Assembly: GCA_018402455.1 (NCBI GenBank)
Contig: JAGYIG010000002.1
Span: 62,001 to 126,000 of the forward strand
Length of the DNA stretch: 64,000 bases
Reading direction: 5' to 3'
Origin: Opitutaceae bacterium
GTDB taxonomy: Bacteria > Verrucomicrobiota > Verrucomicrobiia > Opitutales > Opitutaceae
Shown: positions 6,084-16,219 of the stretch, in pieces
Numbering within the stretch: the first letter of the stretch is position 1
Layout: every line of letters begins with the position of its first letter
The notes under the pieces: generated by a model
The model's database searches: none
Told to the model about the DNA's origin: nothing
What the model saw: only the letters and a program-made list of their open reading frames with translations
Program-made: the position numbers and the translations under genes

Positions 6084-6251
6084 GTAAACCTAACGTGAAA
6101 GAGCCAGATGCAAACCAGTGCAGCTTCTGCCTTCCTTGACACGGTAGATCCGGACTCGCAAACACTTCCGCGCTCGAGCTTGTCAGCGGGAACGGTGGAT
6201 CTTCACGAGACACTGGGCTGTGCGGGAGCGAGTGACCAGCTATCCCTCATC

Positions 6252-7391
6252 ATGTCGACCATAACAGTCAGCTCACCTGCGACGAAAGTGGACCGTGCCC
6301 GGGTCTTGGTCGTTGACGATGAATACGGACCCCGAGAGTCGATCGCCTTCACGCTCGGTACCGAGTTCGCGGTGGATACGGCGGAGCGGGCGAAGGAGGC
6401 GATTGAGAAGATTGCCCGCCACACCTACGCGGTGATCATCATGGACATCCGGATGCCGGAAATGGATGGCATTGCGGCGCTGGAGTATATTCGCAAGTTG
6501 GACCCGGAGGTGGCGGTGGTCATGTTGACGGGGTACGGGACCTTGGCCACGGCGCAGCAGGCGATGTTGGGCGGAGCGAATCAATATCTGCGCAAACCGC
6601 CGGATATCGAAGAGCTGTTGGCGGCGGTGCGGAAGCAGGCGGACGAGACGGCGATGCGGCGAAAAGAGGCGGAGGCCAATTTGTCGGCCAAGCGCATGTT
6701 GGCCCAATTGAAATCCGAGATGTCGGAAGTGTCTACCAATGTTTGGCAGGGCCGGGCTTCCGTGGAGTTGGTGCACGATCTGGCGAATCCACTCACCGTG
6801 ATGATCGGCTACGCGGGACTGTTGCAGGCGGAAGCGAAGGTATTGGCGGCGGAGTCACCAGCGAAGGCGGCGAAGTTCATGGAATACGCCAAAATCGTCG
6901 AACGCTCGGCGGAGTATTGCCACCATTTGGCGGAGAACTGGCGCAAATCCACGCATCAGCCGGCGGATTTCAAGGAAGTCGATCTCGTGGAGTTGGCGCG
7001 GGAGATGCACCGGGTGATCTTTTTCAGCAACGCCTCCATCGTATTTTCGGGGGCGACCAAGTTGGTGATCAAAGGGGTGAGGTTGGAATTGGCCCGGGTG
7101 TTTCAAAATGTGTTTCGGAATGCGTTGGAAGCGGGATCCCGGAAGGTCATGGTGGGTTTTGCGCTGACGGCGCAGGGAGCCGAGGTGGTGATTGCGGATG
7201 ACGGGGAGGGAATGACTCCCGACCACATGCACCGGGCTTTAAAAGGAGGATTTACGACCAAACCGCATGGGACGGGATTGGGCCTGAGTATCTGTCGGCA
7301 CCTCTTGGGAGCCCACGGTGCCACGTTGGCCCTCGAATCGATCGAAGGTGAAGGCTCCACCCTGCACATCACCTTTCCGGCCCTGGAATGA
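6252..7391 (+). CDS. Receiver-histidine kinase hybrid (first gene of signalling operon)
   Basis: Chosen start MSTITVSSPATKVDRARVLV gives 379 residues; an upstream in-frame ATG at 6108 would add 48 residues without domain character. Residues about 15-130 are a receiver with the acidic pair VDDE, phospho-acceptor D65 (IIMDIRMPE) and conserved K115 (LRKPP). Residues about 165-379 are a kinase core: H-box VELVHDLANPLTVMIGY (H175), N-box FQNVFRNALEAG, G1 IADDGEGM and G2 GTGLGLSI. The receiver at the N-terminus suggests a relay component that takes phosphate from, or is gated by, another kinase. It is cytoplasmic with no membrane segment. Its stop overlaps the next ATG (ATGA), so it is coupled to the ketosynthase. 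Confidence 0.9.
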   Translation: MSTITVSSPATKVDRARVLVVDDEYGPRESIAFTLGTEFAVDTAERAKEAIEKIARHTYAVIIMDIRMPEMDGIAALEYIRKLDPEVAVVMLTGYGTLATAQQAMLGGANQYLRKPPDIEELLAAVRKQADETAMRRKEAEANLSAKRMLAQLKSEMSEVSTNVWQGRASVELVHDLANPLTVMIGYAGLLQAEAKVLAAESPAKAAKFMEYAKIVERSAEYCHHLAENWRKSTHQPADFKEVDLVELAREMHRVIFFSNASIVFSGATKLVIKGVRLELARVFQNVFRNALEAGSRKVMVGFALTAQGAEVVIADDGEGMTPDHMHRALKGGFTTKPHGTGLGLSICRHLLGAHGATLALESIEGEGSTLHITFPALE

Positions 7392-8593
7392 AACGCCGGC
7401 GGGTTAAAATAACCGGCCTTGGGCTGGTGACTCCCGCTGGCATCGGTCGGGATGCCTTTGCCCGCGGGATCCTGGAGCCGGTCAGCCGGGTGCGCACCGC
7501 GGTTGGTTATCCGCCCGAGGCCGGGGCCTTTGTCAGCGCGCGGGTGGAGGGGTTTGACCTCGGCGATTTTGAACCCGACGTATCCACCAAGCGGATGCCA
7601 CGTCACACTCAGTTTGCGGTGGCGGCGGCTAGCATGGCGGCGCGGGAGGCAGGATTTAATTTGCGCGAGCTTGACGGCCAGTCGGTGGTGATTGCGGTCG
7701 GCGCGTCCCTGATGGACTTCGGGGTCATCAACAAAACGGTGGACGTGATTTTGCGCCGGGGCCCCGTGTTTGGTTTGCCGTCCTCGGTTTTCTCGGCCTC
7801 GGTGAGCGCGATCGGCGGGGCGATAGGCGAGCTGTTGCAGGGGCCGGCCCGAGCGATGTCGTTTCAGAGTGCCTGTTGTTCCGGCGTGGACGCGATCGGC
7901 CATGCGGCCGGGGTGATTGAGCGGGGCGAAGCGCGCTACGCCATCTGCGGAGGGACGGAGTCACCGCTCTATTTTCATCCGATGCTGGAGCTGAAAATGG
8001 CGGGGTTGGCCCCGGGGAACCCGGTGGCTCCCGAACGGCAGTGTCGCCCCTTTGATCTTTGGCGCACGACCGGGGTGATTGGCGAAGGGGCGGGCGTTAT
8101 GATTCTGGAGCCAGAGGAAAGTCCAGCGCCGGCGCTGGGCTACGTATCAGGGTATGCCTACGCGTCTGATTCGATCGGCAAGCCGGAAGAAGGACTGGCG
8201 ATTGCGATGGAGATGGCGCTGGCGAATGCCGGACTTCACCGGCAACAAGTGGACACGATCAACGCCTGGGGGCCGGGTCACCGGGTGCTGGATGCGGCGG
8301 AGGCGCGCGCGGTGCACCACGTCTTTGGATCCCGGGCCCTCGAGATTCCGGCGTTTTCGATCAAAGGCGCGATAGGGAATCCGCTGGGGGCGGCGGGGGC
8401 GATCCAGGTGGGAGCCTCGGTGTTGGGATTTGCCGGCAATGGTCTTCCACCGACGGTGAATTGGGATCGGCCGGACCCCGCCTGCAATCTGTGTCTGAGC
8501 CGCGAGGCCCTGCCGGTGGCGAGTCAGCACGTCATGGTGAACACGCATGGACTCTCGGGCACGAATGCGTGTCTGGTGGTCAGTCGATCATGA
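7388..8593 (+). CDS. Beta-ketoacyl synthase-like protein with altered active site
   Basis: A 401-residue thiolase-fold ketosynthase, normal KAS I/II length. The nucleophile region reads FQSACCSG with C163 in the usual Cys position. The usual first catalytic His motif NAHGTGT is NAWGPGH here (W294), the second, TGHLLGAAG, is IGNPLGAAG (N331), while the Lys of that region is kept (SIKG, K326) and the terminal NSFGFGGTN motif is NTHGLSGTN (H387 at the gatekeeper Phe position). Both decarboxylation histidines are therefore missing, so ordinary malonyl-ACP condensation is doubtful; an acyl-binding, acyl-transfer or chain-length-factor-like role is possible. Four-base overlaps join it to kinases on both sides. 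Confidence 0.87.
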   Translation: MKRRRVKITGLGLVTPAGIGRDAFARGILEPVSRVRTAVGYPPEAGAFVSARVEGFDLGDFEPDVSTKRMPRHTQFAVAAASMAAREAGFNLRELDGQSVVIAVGASLMDFGVINKTVDVILRRGPVFGLPSSVFSASVSAIGGAIGELLQGPARAMSFQSACCSGVDAIGHAAGVIERGEARYAICGGTESPLYFHPMLELKMAGLAPGNPVAPERQCRPFDLWRTTGVIGEGAGVMILEPEESPAPALGYVSGYAYASDSIGKPEEGLAIAMEMALANAGLHRQQVDTINAWGPGHRVLDAAEARAVHHVFGSRALEIPAFSIKGAIGNPLGAAGAIQVGASVLGFAGNGLPPTVNWDRPDPACNLCLSREALPVASQHVMVNTHGLSGTNACLVVSRS

Positions 8594-10590
8594 ATACGGT
8601 TTCCCTTTATGTCTCAGTGGCGGCCGTGCTGGTGGGTTTGCTGGCCTTGTGGGCGAATCCGAAGCGCCGGATCAATCAGCTTTTTTTCACGGCCTCCCTC
8701 CATGTGGCGCTGTGGCTCATCTGTTCCAACGTGGCCCGGACGCTGGTTGATCCGTATTCGGGTCTGTTGTGGTTGCGGATCAGTGCGTCGGTCGGGGCCT
8801 TCATTCCCCTGCACCTCTGGTTCATCAAAGAAGCGATCATCGATAGCGAAACGCCGGAGCGCGGTTTTCCTTTGCGGTTGTCCGGTTGGGGTGTCGTCAG
8901 CGTTGCGCTCGCCTATTTACCCCTAACCTTTTGGTTCGTACCGGAGCATTCCACGCCGGAACGACCGGTTTATGGCTGGGGTTATTATGCCTATGTGGGG
9001 GGGCTCTTGCTGGCCTACGGAGTGCTTTGTCAAAACACGGTGGCGCGGATGCGCCGCCAACTGGGCGTGACCAAGATCGAACTGCAGATTGCGTTGTTGG
9101 GGGGCAGTGGTGTGGCGGTGGTGGTTTTGTTGATCATGGTCGCGCGCACGTTTTTCCCGATCCCCGATTACCTCCAACCGTTGGTGATTTTTGTGCTGTA
9201 TTCGTCCACGGCCATCGCGATCACGACCCACCGGATTTTTGACGCGCGGCACCTGTTCATGATCGCCACGCAGCGGGTGCTCCTGGTGCTGGTGGTGGCA
9301 GGCTCTTCGTATCTGCTTTGGCGCCAATTGTCCGGACTGTTGTCGGAACTGATCGCGTATACACTGTCGGTGGTCTTCGTATTATGGTTCGCCGGTTGGC
9401 TGAACCGTCGGCTTGATGCCTGGTTGCTCCGTTATCCGGAAGCGGTCCAGGCCCGGCTGGCGGCGTTTAATGCGGCCCACAGCGAGGTGCGCACGGACGA
9501 GTTGAAAAAGGCGTTTGCCAAGGTGTTGAACGGTTGGGGACAAACGGATCGGGCCTTTCTCCTGCTGGAGACGGATGACAGACTGGCGGACGAGGGGCTC
9601 CTGATCGGCAAGGACGACCCGGTCGTCCGGGCGCTGCGGGAGATTCAATGGGCCACTCCGGAGCGCCTGATGCGCGAAAGAGAAACAAAGGAGCGGAACG
9701 CGCTGGCGGATTTTATGAGCGAGCACGAGTTGGGCGTCATGGTCTGGGAGCAGGGCCCCACCATGAGTCTGATGGTGGCCTTGGGGGCCCGCCCCTCACG
9801 CCGCCCGTTCACGTTTCCCGAGGTGATGCAACTGCGGGAATTGGTCTCCATTTTCGACAGTTCACTTTCGCGCACCCAGCTCCTGGCCAAGGCGCAGCGG
9901 GCCGAACAACTTGCGACGGTTGGTTTGTTGGGGGCGGGGGTGGCCCATGAAATCCGCAACCCGCTGGTTTCGATCAAAACCTTCGCTCAACTGTTGCCGA
10001 AGCACTACGCCGACCCGACCTTTCGCGAGCGTTTCTCCCATTTGATTGGTGATGAGGTCGCGCGGATTGATCGGCTCACGGAACAGCTGCTGGATTTGGC
10101 GGCACCCCGGTCCTTTCAAAAACAGCGGGTGGACCTGCACGACTTGATCCGGATCTGCCTCGACTTGGTGGCGGCCCGGGTAGCCTCGCGCAACGTGCAT
10201 ATCCGTTCGGACCTGCAGGCGGTTCCCGATGTGGTCTGGACCGACCCGCACGGACTGAAACAAGTCATCCTGAACCTCTGCTTCAACGCCGTTCAAGCGC
10301 AGGAAAGCAGTGATCGGGATCGCCCAATCGGCTTGACCATCCGCACGGTGCGCAAGGGCAAAAAAATCTGTCTGGCGGTGGAAGATGAGGGCCCGGGGGT
10401 TCCCGATGCTGCCCGTTTGCATTTATTCGAGCCCTTCCATTCGACCAAATCAAATGGGTTTGGACTTGGCCTTACGGTCTGCACCGAAATCCTTTCTCAA
10501 CTCGACTCCAACATAACCCTCGATCCTTACGTAGAAGGTCAGGGGGCGGTGTTTCGAATTTCCCTACCGTGTCCGCCTCGTTCCTCCTAG
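8590..10590 (+). CDS. Membrane-bound sensor histidine kinase, PrsK-like layout
   Basis: Starting at the ATG overlapping the ketosynthase stop gives 666 residues. Residues about 1-275 hold a hydrophobic multi-helix region beginning VSLYVSVAAVLVGLLALWA, like the 7TM sensor of PEP-CTERM-type kinases. A GAF-like linker (about 290-440) follows, then a HisKA/HATPase core: H-box GVAHEIRNPLVSIKTFAQLL, N-box VILNLCFNAVQAQ, G1 VEDEGPGVP and G2 FGLGLTVC. All catalytic motifs are intact, so this is the most likely active autokinase of the operon. The resemblance to PrsK is by layout only; a PEP-CTERM protein does occur near 60 kb. The 3' end overlaps the next gene by 22 bp. Confidence 0.88.
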   Translation: MNTVSLYVSVAAVLVGLLALWANPKRRINQLFFTASLHVALWLICSNVARTLVDPYSGLLWLRISASVGAFIPLHLWFIKEAIIDSETPERGFPLRLSGWGVVSVALAYLPLTFWFVPEHSTPERPVYGWGYYAYVGGLLLAYGVLCQNTVARMRRQLGVTKIELQIALLGGSGVAVVVLLIMVARTFFPIPDYLQPLVIFVLYSSTAIAITTHRIFDARHLFMIATQRVLLVLVVAGSSYLLWRQLSGLLSELIAYTLSVVFVLWFAGWLNRRLDAWLLRYPEAVQARLAAFNAAHSEVRTDELKKAFAKVLNGWGQTDRAFLLLETDDRLADEGLLIGKDDPVVRALREIQWATPERLMRERETKERNALADFMSEHELGVMVWEQGPTMSLMVALGARPSRRPFTFPEVMQLRELVSIFDSSLSRTQLLAKAQRAEQLATVGLLGAGVAHEIRNPLVSIKTFAQLLPKHYADPTFRERFSHLIGDEVARIDRLTEQLLDLAAPRSFQKQRVDLHDLIRICLDLVAARVASRNVHIRSDLQAVPDVVWTDPHGLKQVILNLCFNAVQAQESSDRDRPIGLTIRTVRKGKKICLAVEDEGPGVPDAARLHLFEPFHSTKSNGFGLGLTVCTEILSQLDSNITLDPYVEGQGAVFRISLPCPPRSS

Positions 10591-12350
10591 CCACCGAAGA
10601 TACCGATCTATTCAAACGATGGGCTGCTCAGATGCCGAGTGGCGGCACCGTGCTGACGCTGGACGAGGTGGTGGCCTATCCCAGCTTGCCCCCGGGTTTA
10701 CCGATCGTGGTGGTGGCGGATACGCTGGTGCTGGATCGCGTCCCCGCCGTGTTGGAGCGGTGCCCGCTGGTGGGGGTGGGGCGCCCTCATTCCGCGACGT
10801 TTGAACACCTCAAACTTTCGGGCCGAGCGATTCGGTGCATGGACTACGATGAGAGTGGAGAGCGGCTGGGCGAATTTTTGCCCCTGTTGGCGGAGATTGC
10901 GGAGCGCCGGGCGGCCCTGGATCTGGTGGCGGAAAAGAATCAGCGAGGAAGCAATACCAACCCTCCGCTGCCGGTGCCCGCGGCCAGCGGGGCGATGGAC
11001 ATGTGGGATTTTTTGGAAGGGGCGGTGGAAAACATGGGTTCCCGGGAACGGCTGCTGGCCGAGTTTCGACGCGCGTCGAGGCACGTGTTGAACGCTTCGC
11101 ACATCGTTTTCTTTTTGCGCGAAGACGGCGAGTTTCGCGCTGATCGGGGCGCCTCGCACTGCCCCAACGATGATCCTTTGATCGTCTACCTTTCCTTTCG
11201 TCCGCTCGTGCTGGACGGGGCGGAGTGGCCGGGCCCACCGGACCCGTTGGCGGAAATGGCGGCGCGCAACCGCATGGCGCTGTGGGGCGCCCGGCTGCTG
11301 GTGCCGATGCACGACAACGGCCACTTGACCGGCGTGATCGCCTGTGGGGTGCGCAACGACGGTCAGCCCTACGACGCACAGGACAAGGCGCGCGCGGTCT
11401 CCTTTGCGCGACTCCTGCGGGAGTTTCTGCGGCAGAACAAACAGAGCAGCCGATTGCACGGTCTCTACGAACGCAGTTTGGTGGGCGACCGCTATTTTCC
11501 CCACACCCAGCTGCTCGATGCCGACGAAACGCCCTCCGTGGAGATGCCGGTGGCGGTGCGAGCGCTGGTCGGCAAAGCCCGCCGCGATCGCGCCACCTGT
11601 CGACTGCGGCCCGGTCCCGGACAACCCTTTCGTGGGGCGGCGGGCCTGGTGAGTGAAACCGGAGGGGCCTGGGTTTTTTGGGAGGAGGCGAGCAATGACG
11701 TGGCCGATTGGATGCAGGATCAGCGACAAAACCGGTTGGAGTTGTTGCGGGATCTTTCCCTCACGTTGAATCACGAACTGGGCAATGCCTTGGTCTCGTT
11801 TGCCGCGATGGGTAACCGCTCATCGCAGCTGCGCCTGCCCGCCGCCTTGCGGAAATCGATTGCCTCGGACCTCGCGCGGTTGACCCGCCTGAACAACGAC
11901 CTCGTGAAGCTGGCGGAGTTTGCGCTGATGCAGGCGGAAAAGGTGGACCTGAGGACGATCCTGCAACAGGCGGGCGAGGCGGTGGGCACCACCGTCGAGG
12001 TGCCGCCGGATCCGGTGGAAATCGAGGTGGTGGGCGAATTGGTCCGTTATGCGCTGGAAGCCCTCATCTGCACCATTGCCGAAAACCAGCCCGCCGATGC
12101 GTCCTCCCGACTCAAGGTGCAGCTGCGCTCCACCGGCGACGCTACAGCGATGACCGCCTTGATCTCGATTCAGGGAACTGGCTTGGAGTTGGAAGGGATT
12201 TTGCCGGACCCAGATCCGGATCAGATTCCCAATCAAGGTCGGCTGGCGGTTTTCATCGCCAAGGAGATCGTGCGCCTGCACGGGGGTGAAATTCACGCGG
12301 GCCCCGGCATGGAAGGCACCGAAATCCTCCTGTCACTGCGGCACTGGTAA
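10569..12350 (+). CDS. Degenerate GAF-histidine-kinase-like protein
   Basis: A 593-residue protein. Residues 1-110 look like a receiver remnant (SASFLLATEDTDLFKRWA) without the usual acidic pair or phospho-Asp. A GAF-like domain spans about 145-290 (LLAEFRRASRHVLNASHIVF, then RLLVPMHDNGHLTGVIACG). The dimerisation region keeps a His (LSLTLNHELGNALVSFA) and the C-terminus resembles HATPase, but the N-box lacks its Asn (YALEALICTIAENQ), the G1 box reads IQGTGLE instead of DxGxG, and only the last motif (GRLAVFIAKEIVRLHGGEI) is recognisable. It is probably a pseudokinase or phosphotransfer scaffold for the neighbouring kinases. The stop shares one base with the next ATG (TAATG). Confidence 0.78.
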   Translation: MSASFLLATEDTDLFKRWAAQMPSGGTVLTLDEVVAYPSLPPGLPIVVVADTLVLDRVPAVLERCPLVGVGRPHSATFEHLKLSGRAIRCMDYDESGERLGEFLPLLAEIAERRAALDLVAEKNQRGSNTNPPLPVPAASGAMDMWDFLEGAVENMGSRERLLAEFRRASRHVLNASHIVFFLREDGEFRADRGASHCPNDDPLIVYLSFRPLVLDGAEWPGPPDPLAEMAARNRMALWGARLLVPMHDNGHLTGVIACGVRNDGQPYDAQDKARAVSFARLLREFLRQNKQSSRLHGLYERSLVGDRYFPHTQLLDADETPSVEMPVAVRALVGKARRDRATCRLRPGPGQPFRGAAGLVSETGGAWVFWEEASNDVADWMQDQRQNRLELLRDLSLTLNHELGNALVSFAAMGNRSSQLRLPAALRKSIASDLARLTRLNNDLVKLAEFALMQAEKVDLRTILQQAGEAVGTTVEVPPDPVEIEVVGELVRYALEALICTIAENQPADASSRLKVQLRSTGDATAMTALISIQGTGLELEGILPDPDPDQIPNQGRLAVFIAKEIVRLHGGEIHAGPGMEGTEILLSLRHW

Positions 12351-13201
12351 TGGAATCGGTCAGTCCATGCGTTGATCGGGTGATGGCGGCGATGTTGGCC
12401 TCGCCGGACGTGTCGGCCGCAATTCTTTTTGGATCACGAGCGCGGCCGGAGGCGGACTCGCCAGCCGATGCCGGGTCGGATGTGGATTTGCAGCTCGTGG
12501 TCAAAACGCCCCGGCAGTGGGTGGACCGCCGGTGGGCGGAATCGGTGTTGCCACCGGATGCGGTGCAGGCGTGGAGTGTGCGCGATGCCTTTGGTGGGGT
12601 GAAAAAGGTCTCGGTTCTGCTGGTCGACGGGGAACTCGATATGGTGTTCGTGCCGGCGCGCCGGATGCGCTGGGCCCGCTGGGGGCTGGCGTTGGGGCTC
12701 CACCGCATCAGTCCCGCTGGGATGCGCCGAGCGGGGGATTTGAAACTGCTGGCCGGCGCGGGCTATCGCCTGCTCAAGGGCGGGAGCAAGTGGGAATCGT
12801 TTTGGCGCCGGGTGGTGGCGGAGGTGCCGGAACCCCGACTCTCGGATGCGGAGATTCGCAATCTGGCGGAAGGGGTAAAAGTGGATTTGGTTTCCATCCA
12901 GCGTAAGTTGGATCGGGGAGAACTGCGGGCGGCGCAGCGTTGGTTGCACCTCGGGATTGCCGAGGTGAATTTTAAATTGATGCACGAACTCCGCCACCGC
13001 CGTGGCCGGCGATGCTTCCACGATGCCCGGCGGGCAGAGGAGGTGTTGGACGCGGCGTCACTGGCCCAGGTCACCGTGGTAACGGACCTATCGGTCGAGG
13101 GGATCCGGGAGGCGGCGGAGACGGCGGCCCGGGTCGCCGCCCGGTTGAGCTCCGAACTGCTCGACCCAAGGGAGTTCGGCCATGAGCGATCGGCTGGCTG
13201 A
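12350..13201 (+). CDS. Nucleotidyltransferase-fold protein, last gene of signalling operon
   Basis: A 283-residue protein with the polymerase-beta-like nucleotidyltransferase signature: AILFGSRARPEADSPADAGS followed by DVDLQLVV gives the GS...DxD metal-binding pattern at about residues 25-48, and a third acidic residue may be in ELDMVFVP. The C-terminal half is helical and charged (EIRNLAEGVKVDLVSIQRKL), comparable to the helical partner domain of aminoglycoside adenylyltransferases or HEPN-like modules. It could transfer NMP to a protein or small molecule; no substrate is evident. The TAATG overlap with the preceding pseudokinase argues that it belongs to the same pathway rather than being a stand-alone resistance gene. 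Confidence 0.72.
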   Translation: MESVSPCVDRVMAAMLASPDVSAAILFGSRARPEADSPADAGSDVDLQLVVKTPRQWVDRRWAESVLPPDAVQAWSVRDAFGGVKKVSVLLVDGELDMVFVPARRMRWARWGLALGLHRISPAGMRRAGDLKLLAGAGYRLLKGGSKWESFWRRVVAEVPEPRLSDAEIRNLAEGVKVDLVSIQRKLDRGELRAAQRWLHLGIAEVNFKLMHELRHRRGRRCFHDARRAEEVLDAASLAQVTVVTDLSVEGIREAAETAARVAARLSSELLDPREFGHERSAG

Positions 13202-13533: not shown

Positions 13534-14511
13534 TCAGTGCTTCTCGAACAGATCGGCGATGACGTCTTCGAGAGGGATGTCATGGATGGTGATATCCGCG
13601 ACGGGACCGGTGGTGAGGATCTCCTGCGACACCTTCACGATCTGGTGACCGGGAGCCCGCACCTCAATCTTGCCGTTGTCGTGCCGCCGGGTGATGCCGT
13701 AGGCCGAACTCCACGCCTTTTCAAAGGAGGTGTCCTCGGGCACAAAGGTGACAATTTTTTGGCGGGTGCCGGCGGAGCCGGTCTCCAAACGGTTGAGGTC
13801 GCCGTCATAGATTTTCTGCCCCTGGTGAATGACGATCACGCGATCGCAAAGTTCCTGAATGTCGGCCATGTAGTGGCTGGTGAGCAGGATGGTGACGCGG
13901 TGGCGTTGATTGTAGGCGCGGAGAAAGCTGCGCACCGCCCGCTGCGAGACGACGTCGAGCCCGATCGTGGGTTCATCGAGAAACAGCACCTTGGGCCGGT
14001 GCAACAGAGCGGCGATGAGTTCCATCTTCATGCGCTCACCGAGCGAGAGTTCGCGCACCATCACATTAAGCTTGGCGCGCACGTCGAGCAGGTCGACGAG
14101 TTCGTCGAGGGTGGCCTGCCATTGGCCGGCGGGAATTCCGTAGATGTGCCGCAGCAGGAGAAACGATTCGATGGCTGGTAGGTCCCACCACAGTTGATTC
14201 TTTTGGCCGAGCACCAGTGCGAAGATACGCCGGTAGTCGTTTTCGCGTTTGGTGGGATCAAAACCGGCGACGGTGGCGGAGCCACTGGTCGGGTAGATCA
14301 GTCCGGCGAGCATCTTGAGGGTGGTGGTTTTGCCGGCTCCATTCGGGCCCAAAAATCCGACAAACTCGCCTTCGTTGATTTGGAAGGAAACGTCTTTGGC
14401 GGCAGCCAACTCCTCGAATTCGCGCTTGAACAGACCTTTCACACCTCCCCAGAAGCCGGGCTGTTTTTTGTAGGTGCGGAAGATGCGGGTGAGGTTTTCG
14501 GCTTCGATCAT
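13534..14511 (-). CDS. ABC transporter ATP-binding protein (ABC-2/NatA-like), no permease adjacent
   Basis: A 325-residue ATPase: Walker A GPNGAGKTTT, Q-loop VLGQKNQLWWDLPA, signature VRELSLGERMKMEL, Walker B VLFLDEPTIGLD and switch LLTSHYMADI. The long N-terminal insert (YKKQPGFWGGVKGLFKREFE) and the roughly 90-residue C-terminal extension are typical of the subfamily that pairs with ABC-2 permeases and exports undefined substrates. Normally one or two permease genes follow immediately; here the next sequence downstream on this strand is a 332-bp non-coding gap and a convergent gene, so the partner is absent or elsewhere. It lies 62 bp downstream of a methyltransferase gene and may be cotranscribed with it. 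Confidence 0.92.
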   Translation of the reverse strand: MIEAENLTRIFRTYKKQPGFWGGVKGLFKREFEELAAAKDVSFQINEGEFVGFLGPNGAGKTTTLKMLAGLIYPTSGSATVAGFDPTKRENDYRRIFALVLGQKNQLWWDLPAIESFLLLRHIYGIPAGQWQATLDELVDLLDVRAKLNVMVRELSLGERMKMELIAALLHRPKVLFLDEPTIGLDVVSQRAVRSFLRAYNQRHRVTILLTSHYMADIQELCDRVIVIHQGQKIYDGDLNRLETGSAGTRQKIVTFVPEDTSFEKAWSSAYGITRRHDNGKIEVRAPGHQIVKVSQEILTTGPVADITIHDIPLEDVIADLFEKH

Positions 14512-14573: not shown

Positions 14574-15332
14574 CTATTTCCAGAGCAGGGCGATTTCCGA
14601 TTGGGCGTCCCGCCGGCTCACTTGGCGGGTGATTTGCCCGATGTGGTCGATTTTTTTGGTATCCAGATCGTCCTGATCCGTCGCGCGGTGATAGGCCGGA
14701 TGGTAGAGCTCCGCCAAGGTGTCGGCCGGATGAGGGAGTGCGAGGTGCCGACGGAATCCGGCGGCCTTGCCCAAGTCGAAGATCAAGGAAACGGGCATAT
14801 CGCGTTCATGGACGCCGAATTGCTTGATGGCGTCCTGTGAGGTCGCGGCGTCGTGGTGACCTGACCCGGGTTCAAAAGCGAAGAGCACGCCGTTGGGTTT
14901 CAGGGCGCGGTGGGCGCACTGCAGCGCTTGGGCGGGGTCCTCGGCGTGGTGCAGGGCATCGAAAAAAAGCACGACATCGAACGAACCGCCGCCGTCGAAG
15001 AGCTCGTAGTCGCTGACTTGATAGTCGAGATTGCGCAACTGCGCTTCATCCCGGCGTTGGGTGGCCGCGGCGATCGCTTCGGGTGCGATGTCGATGCCAA
15101 GGACCTCGTGATGTTGTTGCGCCAAGATGTGACTCAGCCAGCCCACTCCGCAACCGAGGTGGAGCAGTCGCTGGGGCGCCTCGGGCAACAGATGGAAGAG
15201 CGCGGCCAGATTGGACAGATTGAATTTGCAGCGGTCGTCGGAGAAAGGCTTGCCGAGGGCATGAGCAATGCCTTCGGGACCTTTGCGCGCGTAGTATTCG
15301 CGTTCGCCTTGTTTGGGATCGGATGGGTTCAA
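14574..15332 (-). CDS. Class I SAM-dependent methyltransferase, copy 1
   Basis: A 252-residue protein with motif I LLHLGCGVGWLSHILAQ, the acidic end of strand 2 (EVLGIDIAPEAI), motif II around FDVVLFFDALHHAEDP and post-II ALKPNGVLFAFEPGSG, a complete Rossmann methyltransferase core at about residues 55-165. The first residues (DPKQGEREYYARKGPEGIAH) are shared nearly word for word with the upstream paralogue, including DPKQGEREY(Y/F)A(R/K). The substrate is unknown; such pairs are common in surface-sugar or lipid modification loci. It reads into the ABC ATPase gene, so export or modification of a common product is plausible but unproven. Confidence 0.85.
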   Translation of the reverse strand: MNPSDPKQGEREYYARKGPEGIAHALGKPFSDDRCKFNLSNLAALFHLLPEAPQRLLHLGCGVGWLSHILAQQHHEVLGIDIAPEAIAAATQRRDEAQLRNLDYQVSDYELFDGGGSFDVVLFFDALHHAEDPAQALQCAHRALKPNGVLFAFEPGSGHHDAATSQDAIKQFGVHERDMPVSLIFDLGKAAGFRRHLALPHPADTLAELYHPAYHRATDQDDLDTKKIDHIGQITRQVSRRDAQSEIALLWK

Positions 15333-15374
15333 AATTGCGAATGGAGGGCGGTGGGAAAGGGGCCGGGGCCGGGT

Positions 15375-16123
15375 TTACTTCCAGAGCACCACAAAGGATT
15401 GGTCCTCCCGTTGGAAAAAGAAGCGGCGAAATGCGCGGCAGACGCCCAGACCAAATTTCTGGCGGGCCTCCCACGAGGACTTTGCGGTGCGGTAGGAAGG
15501 CCGGTAACCGTGCGCAGGAAATCCCACGGCCTGGGTAATTTGAGGGCCGGGTGAAACCCCGCCGCCCGGCCCAACGTGATGATCTTGGCGATGGCATGTC
15601 CTTTCGTGCACCCCGAATTTGCAACCGCGTGTTGCGAAGACGTGGTGCTGCCATGGCCCCCGCCAGGTTCGAAAGCGATCAGCAGGCCGTTGGGTTTTAG
15701 CATGCGGTAGGCGTTGCGAACCGCCGCGGCTTCATCTTCGGCATGATGCAGCGATGAGAAGAAGATGGCGGCATCGAAGGAGCTGTCCTCGGCGCTGAGG
15801 CTTCGTAGTCGGCCATTCGAAAGTGGAGACGCTCCAAATTCAACGCATCGCGCTGCGCCCGCGGCAATGGCGTCCGGCGATATATCCACGCCAAGCACAT
15901 CAAAGCCACGGCGAGCCAGCATGATGGACAGCCAGCCCACGCCACAGCCGAGCTCCGCAACCCGTGCGGGGCGGTTGCCCAGCAGGTGGAAGATGGCGGT
16001 GATGTTGCCCAAGTCCCACTCGCACTCCGATCGGAGATACTTGCCCAGCGCGCGTTGAATTTCCGCGGGCCCTACCTTGGCGAAGTATTCGCGTTCGCCT
16101 TGTTTGGGATCGGTGCCGGGCAT
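15375..16123 (-). pseudogene. Class I methyltransferase, copy 2, with several frameshifts
   Basis: A paralogue of the adjacent methyltransferase. From the ATG at 16123 (MPGTDPKQGEREYFAKVG) the first frame holds motif I ELGCGVGWLSIMLARRG and, later, FDAAIFFSSLHHAEDEAA and LKPNGLLIAFEPGGGH. Between these, the expected LERLHFRMADYEA lies in another frame near 15800, and the C-terminus matching the copy-1 ending (SFVVLWK against SEIALLWK) also lies in another frame, stopping at 15375. At least three small indels therefore separate it from a continuous 250-codon gene. It is either a decaying duplicate or the sequence is locally inaccurate; the neighbouring GH2 gene is disturbed in the same way. 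Confidence 0.72.
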
Positions 16124-16219
16124 AGGGCGAATTGCCCTACAGATTGGGCGCAGGGTCAATCATCCGCCCATGATACCCGGATCGGAGCCGGAGGCGTAGT
16201 GGAGGGGTAGCTGCCCCTC

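Follow-up and report, generated by a model that had tools for sequence, protein, structure and literature searches.

What would bring an altered ketosynthase, a nucleotidyltransferase and three kinase-like proteins together in one bacterial operon? The question is raised by five overlapping genes on the forward strand (positions 6252-13201) of a 64,000-nucleotide stretch of an Opitutaceae genome (contig JAGYIG010000002.1, positions 62,001 to 126,000), referred to here as the window. The answer proposed here, with a confidence that stops a little short of even, is that the operon is a signal-making and signal-reading phosphorelay. It is carried by one observation, namely that the sensor domain of gene 3, a membrane kinase, forms a hub of variation and changes together with each of the two enzymes, the ketosynthase-like protein (KS) and the nucleotidyltransferase (NTase).

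Gene 1 (6252-7391, 379 aa) joins a receiver domain (REC) to a complete histidine kinase (DHp-CA), with Asp65 and His175 as phosphoacceptors; gene 2 (7388-8593, 401 aa) encodes the FabF-fold KS; gene 3 (8590-10590, 666 aa) a membrane sensor histidine kinase composed of about seven transmembrane (TM) segments, a middle region and a complete DHp-CA, with His453; gene 4 (10569-12350, 593 aa) a protein with a predicted REC-like start, GAF, DHp and a CA-like domain that lacks ATP-site motifs; and gene 5 (12350-13201, 283 aa) a Pol-beta NTase of predicted ANT(6)/LinB fold, with Asp44 and Asp46 (12479-12487) and Asp97. The five overlapping reading frames and four junctions of the initial annotation were reproduced exactly: ATGA at 7388 and 8590, a 22-base overlap at 10569, where gene 4 begins with GTG, and TAATG at 12350. 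For gene 1 an alternative upstream start is possible at 6108; 6252 is the start that agrees with relatives.

The covariation concerns the first 285 residues of gene 3 (8590-9444), the 7TM sensor domain, which covaries with the KS and the NTase and is divergent between loci that are alike elsewhere. Of 98 loci, 61 were complete and non-identical. Among 29 phylogenetically independent pairs drawn from these, the correlation was strongest between sensor and NTase (rho 0.64, p 2e-4; leave-one-out range 0.61-0.75), followed by sensor and KS (rho 0.45, p 0.015; range 0.39-0.58), and controlling for identity in gene 1, the gene 3 kinase and gene 4 left values of 0.57 (1/5000 permutations) and 0.43 (51/5000), respectively. 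Neighbour-gene controls were not significant (gene 4-NTase 0.26, p 0.18; gene 1-KS 0.26, p 0.18; gene 4-sensor 0.21, p 0.27). The test covered ten pairs of domains, each at three distance limits; under strict correction the sensor-NTase result (p 2e-4 to 6e-4) would survive and the KS-sensor result (p 0.015-0.021) would not.

The partial-correlation, clustering and close-pair tests were carried out on the 49 loci with all five genes. With the backbone removed, the KS was correlated with gene 3 residues 1-285 (partial r 0.43, 0/2000 Mantel shuffles), the values against gene 1, the rest of gene 3 and gene 4 lying between -0.09 and 0.10 and that against the NTase at 0.12 (51/2000). Sliding windows placed the KS coupling within roughly the first 300 residues of gene 3, fading where the TM region ends, and the only windows above 0.2 outside gene 3 covered NTase residues 61-150 (0.22, 0.31). 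Mere linkage is disfavoured, since the KS end that adjoins gene 3 (residues 301-390) is less coupled to the sensor (0.14-0.15) than other parts of the KS (up to 0.43). Sorting into six types gave an adjusted Rand index of 0.59 for KS and sensor against 0.45 for KS and backbone, a modest excess, and in all-pairs Mantel tests sensor-KS stood at 0.38 (0/1000) and KS-NTase at 0.165 (1/1000).

Close relatives display the same behaviour as replacement of domains. Across 26 close pairs, which are not independent of one another, sensor type and NTase type were both different in 13 and both alike in 9, with only one of the two alike in the others (1 and 3). In the pair L073/L078, DNA identity is mostly 0.87-0.95 over 3.5-15 kb and falls to 0.52-0.70 in the sensor, 0.53-0.61 in the NTase and 0.75-0.84 in the KS; the sensor and NTase valleys lie 3 kb apart, and the stretch between them is conserved. 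L078 is close to L079 in both parts (sensor 0.71, NTase 0.72), neither of which is shared by L073 (0.42, 0.34), and the pair L046/L060, less similar overall, also has identity valleys at sensor and NTase. Presumed maker genes and receptor domain that vary together are a mark of quorum-type systems, and this is what was found here, with exceptions and with weak all-pairs values that are taken up below.

How far is the arrangement inherited as a unit? When the window's own genome and 56 relatives were searched, clear KS orthologues (E < 1e-70) turned up in 16 of the relatives, and all five genes are present in 11 of the 16 loci fetched, in identical order in all 11. The remainder are cut by contig ends (L021, L027, L028) or degraded (L035, L036). 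The two degraded copies belong to genomes from the same genus as the window; genes 4 and 5 were not found in the stretches fetched, and both copies were excluded from the residue counts. With starts picked by homology, and with the degraded copies and the split gene 4 of L028 excluded, ATGA marks the gene 1/2 junction in 9/15 loci, genes 2 and 3 overlap in 13/14, genes 3 and 4 overlap by 13-22 bases in 12/12, and genes 4 and 5 overlap in 9/12. It had been reasoned at the outset that genes lying far apart in related genomes, or overlaps that are not conserved, would make the operon a chance assembly; conserved gene order rules this out and, with the conserved overlaps, argues for one co-inherited system across the family.

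A wider scan of 150 family genomes for four of the proteins found genes 4 and 5 in 55 each, gene 1 in 54 and the KS in 52, with 60 genomes carrying any of the four and 47 all four. Five of the 13 partial genomes have short or cut contigs (G034, G359, G363, G369, G402), one holds a degraded operon (G005), in two gene 1 has diverged too far to pass the cut-off (G309, G391), two have genes 1, 3 and 4 without the KS and NTase (G011, G187), and three were left unclassified (G327, G373, G414). The KS and NTase are jointly absent from two lineages that retain genes 1, 3 and 4 (L117 and L085/L118). These lineages resemble listeners that have stopped making a signal. Gene 4 occurs in 92/252 family genomes and in 15/286 genomes of the class, all 15 within Opitutaceae, and the titles of 64 named loci are all verrucomicrobial (Opitutaceae, Opitutae/Opitutia, Opitutus, Cephaloticoccus, Verrucomicrobia or Verrucomicrobiia). 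One genus is rearranged, with gene 1, an inverted gene 5 and then genes 2-3-4 (L119, L120, L121, L123), and L122 has the order 2-3-4-5-1; the NTase remains with the operon, as it is still there in these rearranged orders.

With respect to the first enzyme, both Pfam ketoacyl-synt domains (N and C) score above cut-off and the PDB match to FabF is strong (E 9e-73), which places the KS with KAS II (FabF) by fold and sequence family but not by the Cys-His-His catalytic triad; it scores under the cut-off of all 25 NCBIfam families among the matches listed and falls in a separate clade, also in a tree from which four wrong reading frames (L130, L138, L141, L018) and one duplicate (L137) had been removed. 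The description of an altered ketosynthase is borne out, as Cys163 (codon 7874-7876) is retained and both FabF histidines are substituted, His1 by Trp294 (8267-8269) and His2 by Asn331. In the 61 complete loci the cysteine is invariant, the His1 site holds Trp in 60 and Cys in 1, and the His2 site holds Asn (44), Ser (8), Thr (8) or Ala (1) and never His. Two further histidines, His298 (8279-8281) and His387 (8546-8548), are each present in 61/61, at sites where the aligned FabF has no His. By established ketosynthase chemistry, an enzyme that keeps the cysteine and lacks the decarboxylation histidines should load and transfer an acyl chain, not condense it. In one report (PMC4807248), PqsBC is described as a ketosynthase-fold enzyme with an altered active site that makes a quorum signal, and its acylation as independent of His.

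The second enzyme is of the Pol-beta type by motif and by sub-threshold Pfam matches; the Pfam Adenyl_transf cut-off is passed by the divergent copy in L121, the window copy falling below it. Residues G28, D44 and D46 are present in 62/62 copies and S29 and D97 in 61/62. The predicted model (pLDDT 93.6) retrieved ANT(6)-Ib (E 1.2e-7) and LinB (4e-7) in Foldseek, so that both the GS-DxD-D motif and the predicted fold are those of the ANT(6)/LinB group, that is, of small-molecule (antibiotic) nucleotidyltransferases. The likeness extends over the whole chain at an identity of 11-13%, with the difference that gene 5 sits in a signalling operon. An assignment to the HalB/MNT type was dropped, as the sequence matches were weak and confined to the N-terminus and the fold search led to ANT(6)/LinB instead.

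The three kinase-like proteins of the initial annotation stand, in unequal states of preservation. Gene 1 matches Pfam Response_reg, HisKA and HATPase_c above their cut-offs and keeps D65 and H175 in 58/58 copies; gene 3 matches HisKA and HATPase_c and keeps H453, N566 and D599 in 60/60; and in both the tested N-box, G1 and G2 residues are retained apart from alignment gaps. Gene 3 has the DHp histidine, the N, G1 and G2 boxes and the membrane sensor of a sensor histidine kinase, with seven hydrophobic segments in the window copy and 4-9 across 61 loci by simple hydropathy, and its homologue in the relative L221 exceeds the HisKA_7TM cut-off. Gene 4 has an invariant DHp histidine, His402 (11772-11774; 66/66), and no recognisable ATP-site motifs, the G1 and G2 patterns being found in 0/61 copies as against 17/19 and 18/19 of its homologues outside the family; strict H-box patterns matched 51/61 family copies and 13/19 outside homologues. 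HisKA or HATPase Pfam matches at E 0.01 were found in 0/46 copies, and GAF in 41/46, the window copy lying just below the cut-off (22.1 vs 22.4 bits). In the predicted model (pLDDT 85, pTM 0.46) the N-terminus reads as REC-like, and the Foldseek matches are histidine kinases. Gene 4 is a probable phosphotransferase or pseudokinase, having kept the DHp histidine and the histidine-kinase fold and lost the ATP motifs in the manner of ChpT/Spo0B-type proteins, and the degenerate kinase first described is conserved in that form across the family.

A second pair, consisting of a gene-3-like membrane kinase and a receiver-bearing protein, adjoins the operon in L045, L054, L055, L058, L064, L067, L079 and L100, and in L075 the flanking kinase stands alone; in L055 and L045 the flanking receiver protein has no further Pfam domain. 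It has the look of an ancient duplication of genes 3 and 1.

Relatives outside the family indicate how the operon came about. A scan of 288 genomes of the phylum for the KS (cut-off E 1e-85) found 12 family orthologues and 21 weaker matches in 11 other families. The weaker matches might have been ordinary FabF, a view rejected once 20 of the 21 (G546 was left out) had been read and found to form an atypical group: Cys is kept in 20/20, His1 in 18/20 (Tyr in 2) and His387 in 18/20 (Arg in 2), and His2 is replaced in 20/20. L195 and L196, of the same class, combine Tyr at the His1 site with Arg at the His387 site, which is another altered active site. In a tree of 54 KS, the window clade (18 sequences, support 1.0) is sister to the 20 outside KS (support 0.89), and both are split from 16 ordinary KS (support 0.984). 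Since the sister group mostly retains His1, the Trp at this site is most simply a later loss of His.

The KS adjoins a gene 3 homologue in 20/20 outside loci, and a gene 4 homologue comes next in 19/20, the twentieth (L223) leaving its contig within gene 3. A full-length NtrC-type sigma-54 response regulator lies 3' of the kinases in 10/20, a FadL/TodX porin is nearby in 14/20, a gene 1 homologue in 17/20 and an FAD oxidase in 10/20, some absences being due to contig or region ends. The window operon is a derived version of this arrangement, in which the KS lost both FabF histidines, gene 4 lost its ATP motifs and the NTase was added. Two other genes were noted at single outside loci, a B12-binding radical SAM protein directly 5' of the KS (L221:6612-8078) and an O-methyltransferase that separates gene 4 from the FadL porin (L233:6946-8034).

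How might these parts work together? As the sensor varies with both the KS and the NTase, it is simplest to suppose that these enzymes shape what the sensor perceives. The scheme that we infer, in its chemistry as well as in the role of the enzymes as ligand makers, the nature of the ligand, the order of phosphate transfer and the output, runs as follows. The KS would load an acyl chain, probably on its cysteine, and transfer it without condensation; the NTase would attach a nucleotide to some small molecule; and together, joined in some species by an FAD oxidase or a JmjC/cupin protein, they would produce or complete a small ligand that probably bears an acyl group. Tailoring-type genes gained and lost within the operon speak for such a role: an FAD oxidase of the same family as in the outside relatives lies directly 5' of the KS in five family loci (L122, L176, L178, L179, L192), and a JmjC/Cupin_8 protein lies between genes 4 and 5 in two (L083:11875-12792 and L048:2228-3145; mutual identity 74%). 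The FadL porin of the relatives fits a hydrophobic molecule, and in S. meliloti FadL helps the perception of long-chain AHLs (PMC5977203). The 7TM domain of gene 3 would bind the ligand; a variable N-terminal domain contrasting with a conserved cytoplasmic part is known from ComP (PMC4008528). Gene 3 would then autophosphorylate, and phosphate may pass to the receiver of gene 1, to the histidine of the ATP-dead, ChpT/Spo0B-like gene 4 and on to a response regulator, which in the relatives would be the adjacent sigma-54 activator and for which no candidate was found at the locus in this family. A fuller version, which we consider unlikely, is an undescribed form of chemical communication scattered over the phylum Verrucomicrobiota, in which a KS-fold enzyme with an atypical Cys-His-Asn site makes a hydrophobic signal that re-enters by FadL and is read by the 7TM kinase and its partner kinase for a sigma-54 regulator, and in which Opitutaceae would modify the signal by an ANT-type NTase and exchange sensor and enzyme alleles to give pherotypes.

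Known systems offer partial parallels. ComQXPA likewise has maker genes beside a multi-TM sensor kinase, overlaps, a sensor far more variable than the kinase, and allele types; Agr has signal-maker genes beside a multi-TM sensor kinase, a variable sensor and allele types. The operon differs from both in that no peptide gene was seen in it, the putative makers being the KS-like protein and the NTase, and in having three kinase-like proteins and variable parts that flank a conserved block. In RpfF/RpfC and CqsA/CqsS the gene of an acyl-using enzyme stands beside that of a membrane sensor kinase, as in the operon, which has a KS fold rather than a crotonase or PLP enzyme, and an additional REC-kinase and ATP-dead kinase. 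PqsBC shares a KS-fold enzyme with an altered active site but is a FabH-type heterodimer. The signal of its pathway is read by a cytosolic regulator and not by kinases. ChpT and Spo0B have DHp helices with a histidine, and ChpT also an ATPase-like domain that makes no use of ATP; gene 4 adds a GAF and a predicted REC-like domain, and its outside-family homologues mostly have intact ATP motifs. NCBIfam matches to LvrA and LvrB were also obtained, that to LvrA far below the curated cut-off (64 vs 1200 bits). LvrB has the REC-kinase order of gene 1.

A number of observations weigh against the proposal that the operon makes and reads a signal. A simple two-step pathway predicts that its enzymes covary, and KS-NTase rho is 0.09 in the independent pairs. 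The all-pairs Mantel value for sensor and NTase is weak (0.195, 4/1000; 0.121, 29/1000, with KS and GAF controlled), as is the log-distance partial correlation (0.19), a weakness that may come from saturation of the NTase distances; the independent pairs were used in place of these tests. The remainder of gene 3 tracks the NTase as well (GAF 0.43, p 0.019; kinase 0.49, p 0.0065), so that the effect is graded and not purely one of the sensor, and there are exceptions (L024/L056, sensor 0.74 and NTase 0.32; L120/L123, sensor 0.53 and NTase 0.79). Recombination tracts could couple the KS and the adjoining sensor by linkage, and several loci come from metagenome assemblies, where misassembly is possible. 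Moreover, the 20 outside loci yielded no NTase homologue, FadL was not found at the family loci, and NtrC queries against the fetched family loci returned essentially receiver domains only, chiefly that of gene 1. One could conclude that there is no functional pairing at all, sensor, KS and NTase being the least constrained parts, independently recombined and correlated by chance or by a shared recombination history, and that the NTase switches without the sensor in several pairs, that KS and sensor adjoin, and that the all-pairs sensor-NTase value is weak would all suit such an explanation. Yet KS and NTase are uncorrelated in the independent pairs though both are variable, and in L073/L078 the stretch separating sensor from NTase is still conserved; among the explanations considered this one appears the most doubtful.

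The main rival is a circuit for the use of a compound, in which the kinases detect a hydrophobic compound from outside and turn on its utilisation, the KS, FAD oxidase and NTase act on it, and sensor and enzymes covary through binding one molecule. The same covariation fits it too, and a FadL/TodX porin and an FAD oxidase at the relatives' loci would be expected of it, but the enzyme set of the locus seems too small for a catabolic route, and translation of the KS is coupled to that of the kinases, both of which also follow it in 19/20 loci outside the family; on balance we hold this rival to be unlikely. The initial annotation had proposed instead that the KS-like subunit senses an acyl chain or acyl carrier protein (ACP), with gene 4 as scaffold and the NTase as output. 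A KS serving as an intracellular acyl or acyl-ACP sensor, possibly touching the membrane domain of gene 3, would explain why the cysteine is kept and the condensation histidines lost, as in a non-elongating acyl-binding protein, and KS-sensor covariation is also compatible with physical contact; this covariation is nevertheless easier to understand if the KS helps to make the molecule detected, and sister-group KS retain His1 in 18/20, so that the KS was probably an enzyme first. The part given to the NTase fares worse, in that the outside loci, where no NTase was found, have the sigma-54 regulator behind the kinases as apparent output in half of the cases, and in that the NTase has the predicted fold of small-molecule nucleotidyltransferases and varies along with the gene 3 sensor. 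Sensing by the KS thus retains some standing, the NTase as output is disfavoured, and the model as a whole is distinctly improbable. A role in phage defence was rejected, PADLOC matches being weak and limited to genes 1 and 5 (best 23.5 bits), with no known family recognised; so was a plasmid or viral element, as the gene 4 protein was unmatched in plasmids and the KS profile in viral contigs.

Every part of the operon comes from a known class; no description of the combination, its spread or the enzyme-sensor covariation was found in the open-access papers searched, a coverage that leaves out subscription journals and preprints. If the proposal that the operon makes and reads a signal is true, a widespread and little-studied phylum would have a chemical signalling circuit with an unusual chemistry (a KS fold and an antibiotic-type NTase), and sensor and NTase differences of the L073/L078 type would make signal specificity genetically testable. 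The operon and its relatives also constitute a natural active-to-dead series for both a ketosynthase and a kinase.

In the window the operon is flanked by RmuC and an ABC transporter ATPase. Next to the ATPase (13534-14511) stand two adjacent methyltransferase-like reading frames (14574-16159), convergent to the operon, the first of which is confirmed by Pfam; look-alikes of this ATPase, as judged by eye, adjoin the operon in L120, L176 and L179.

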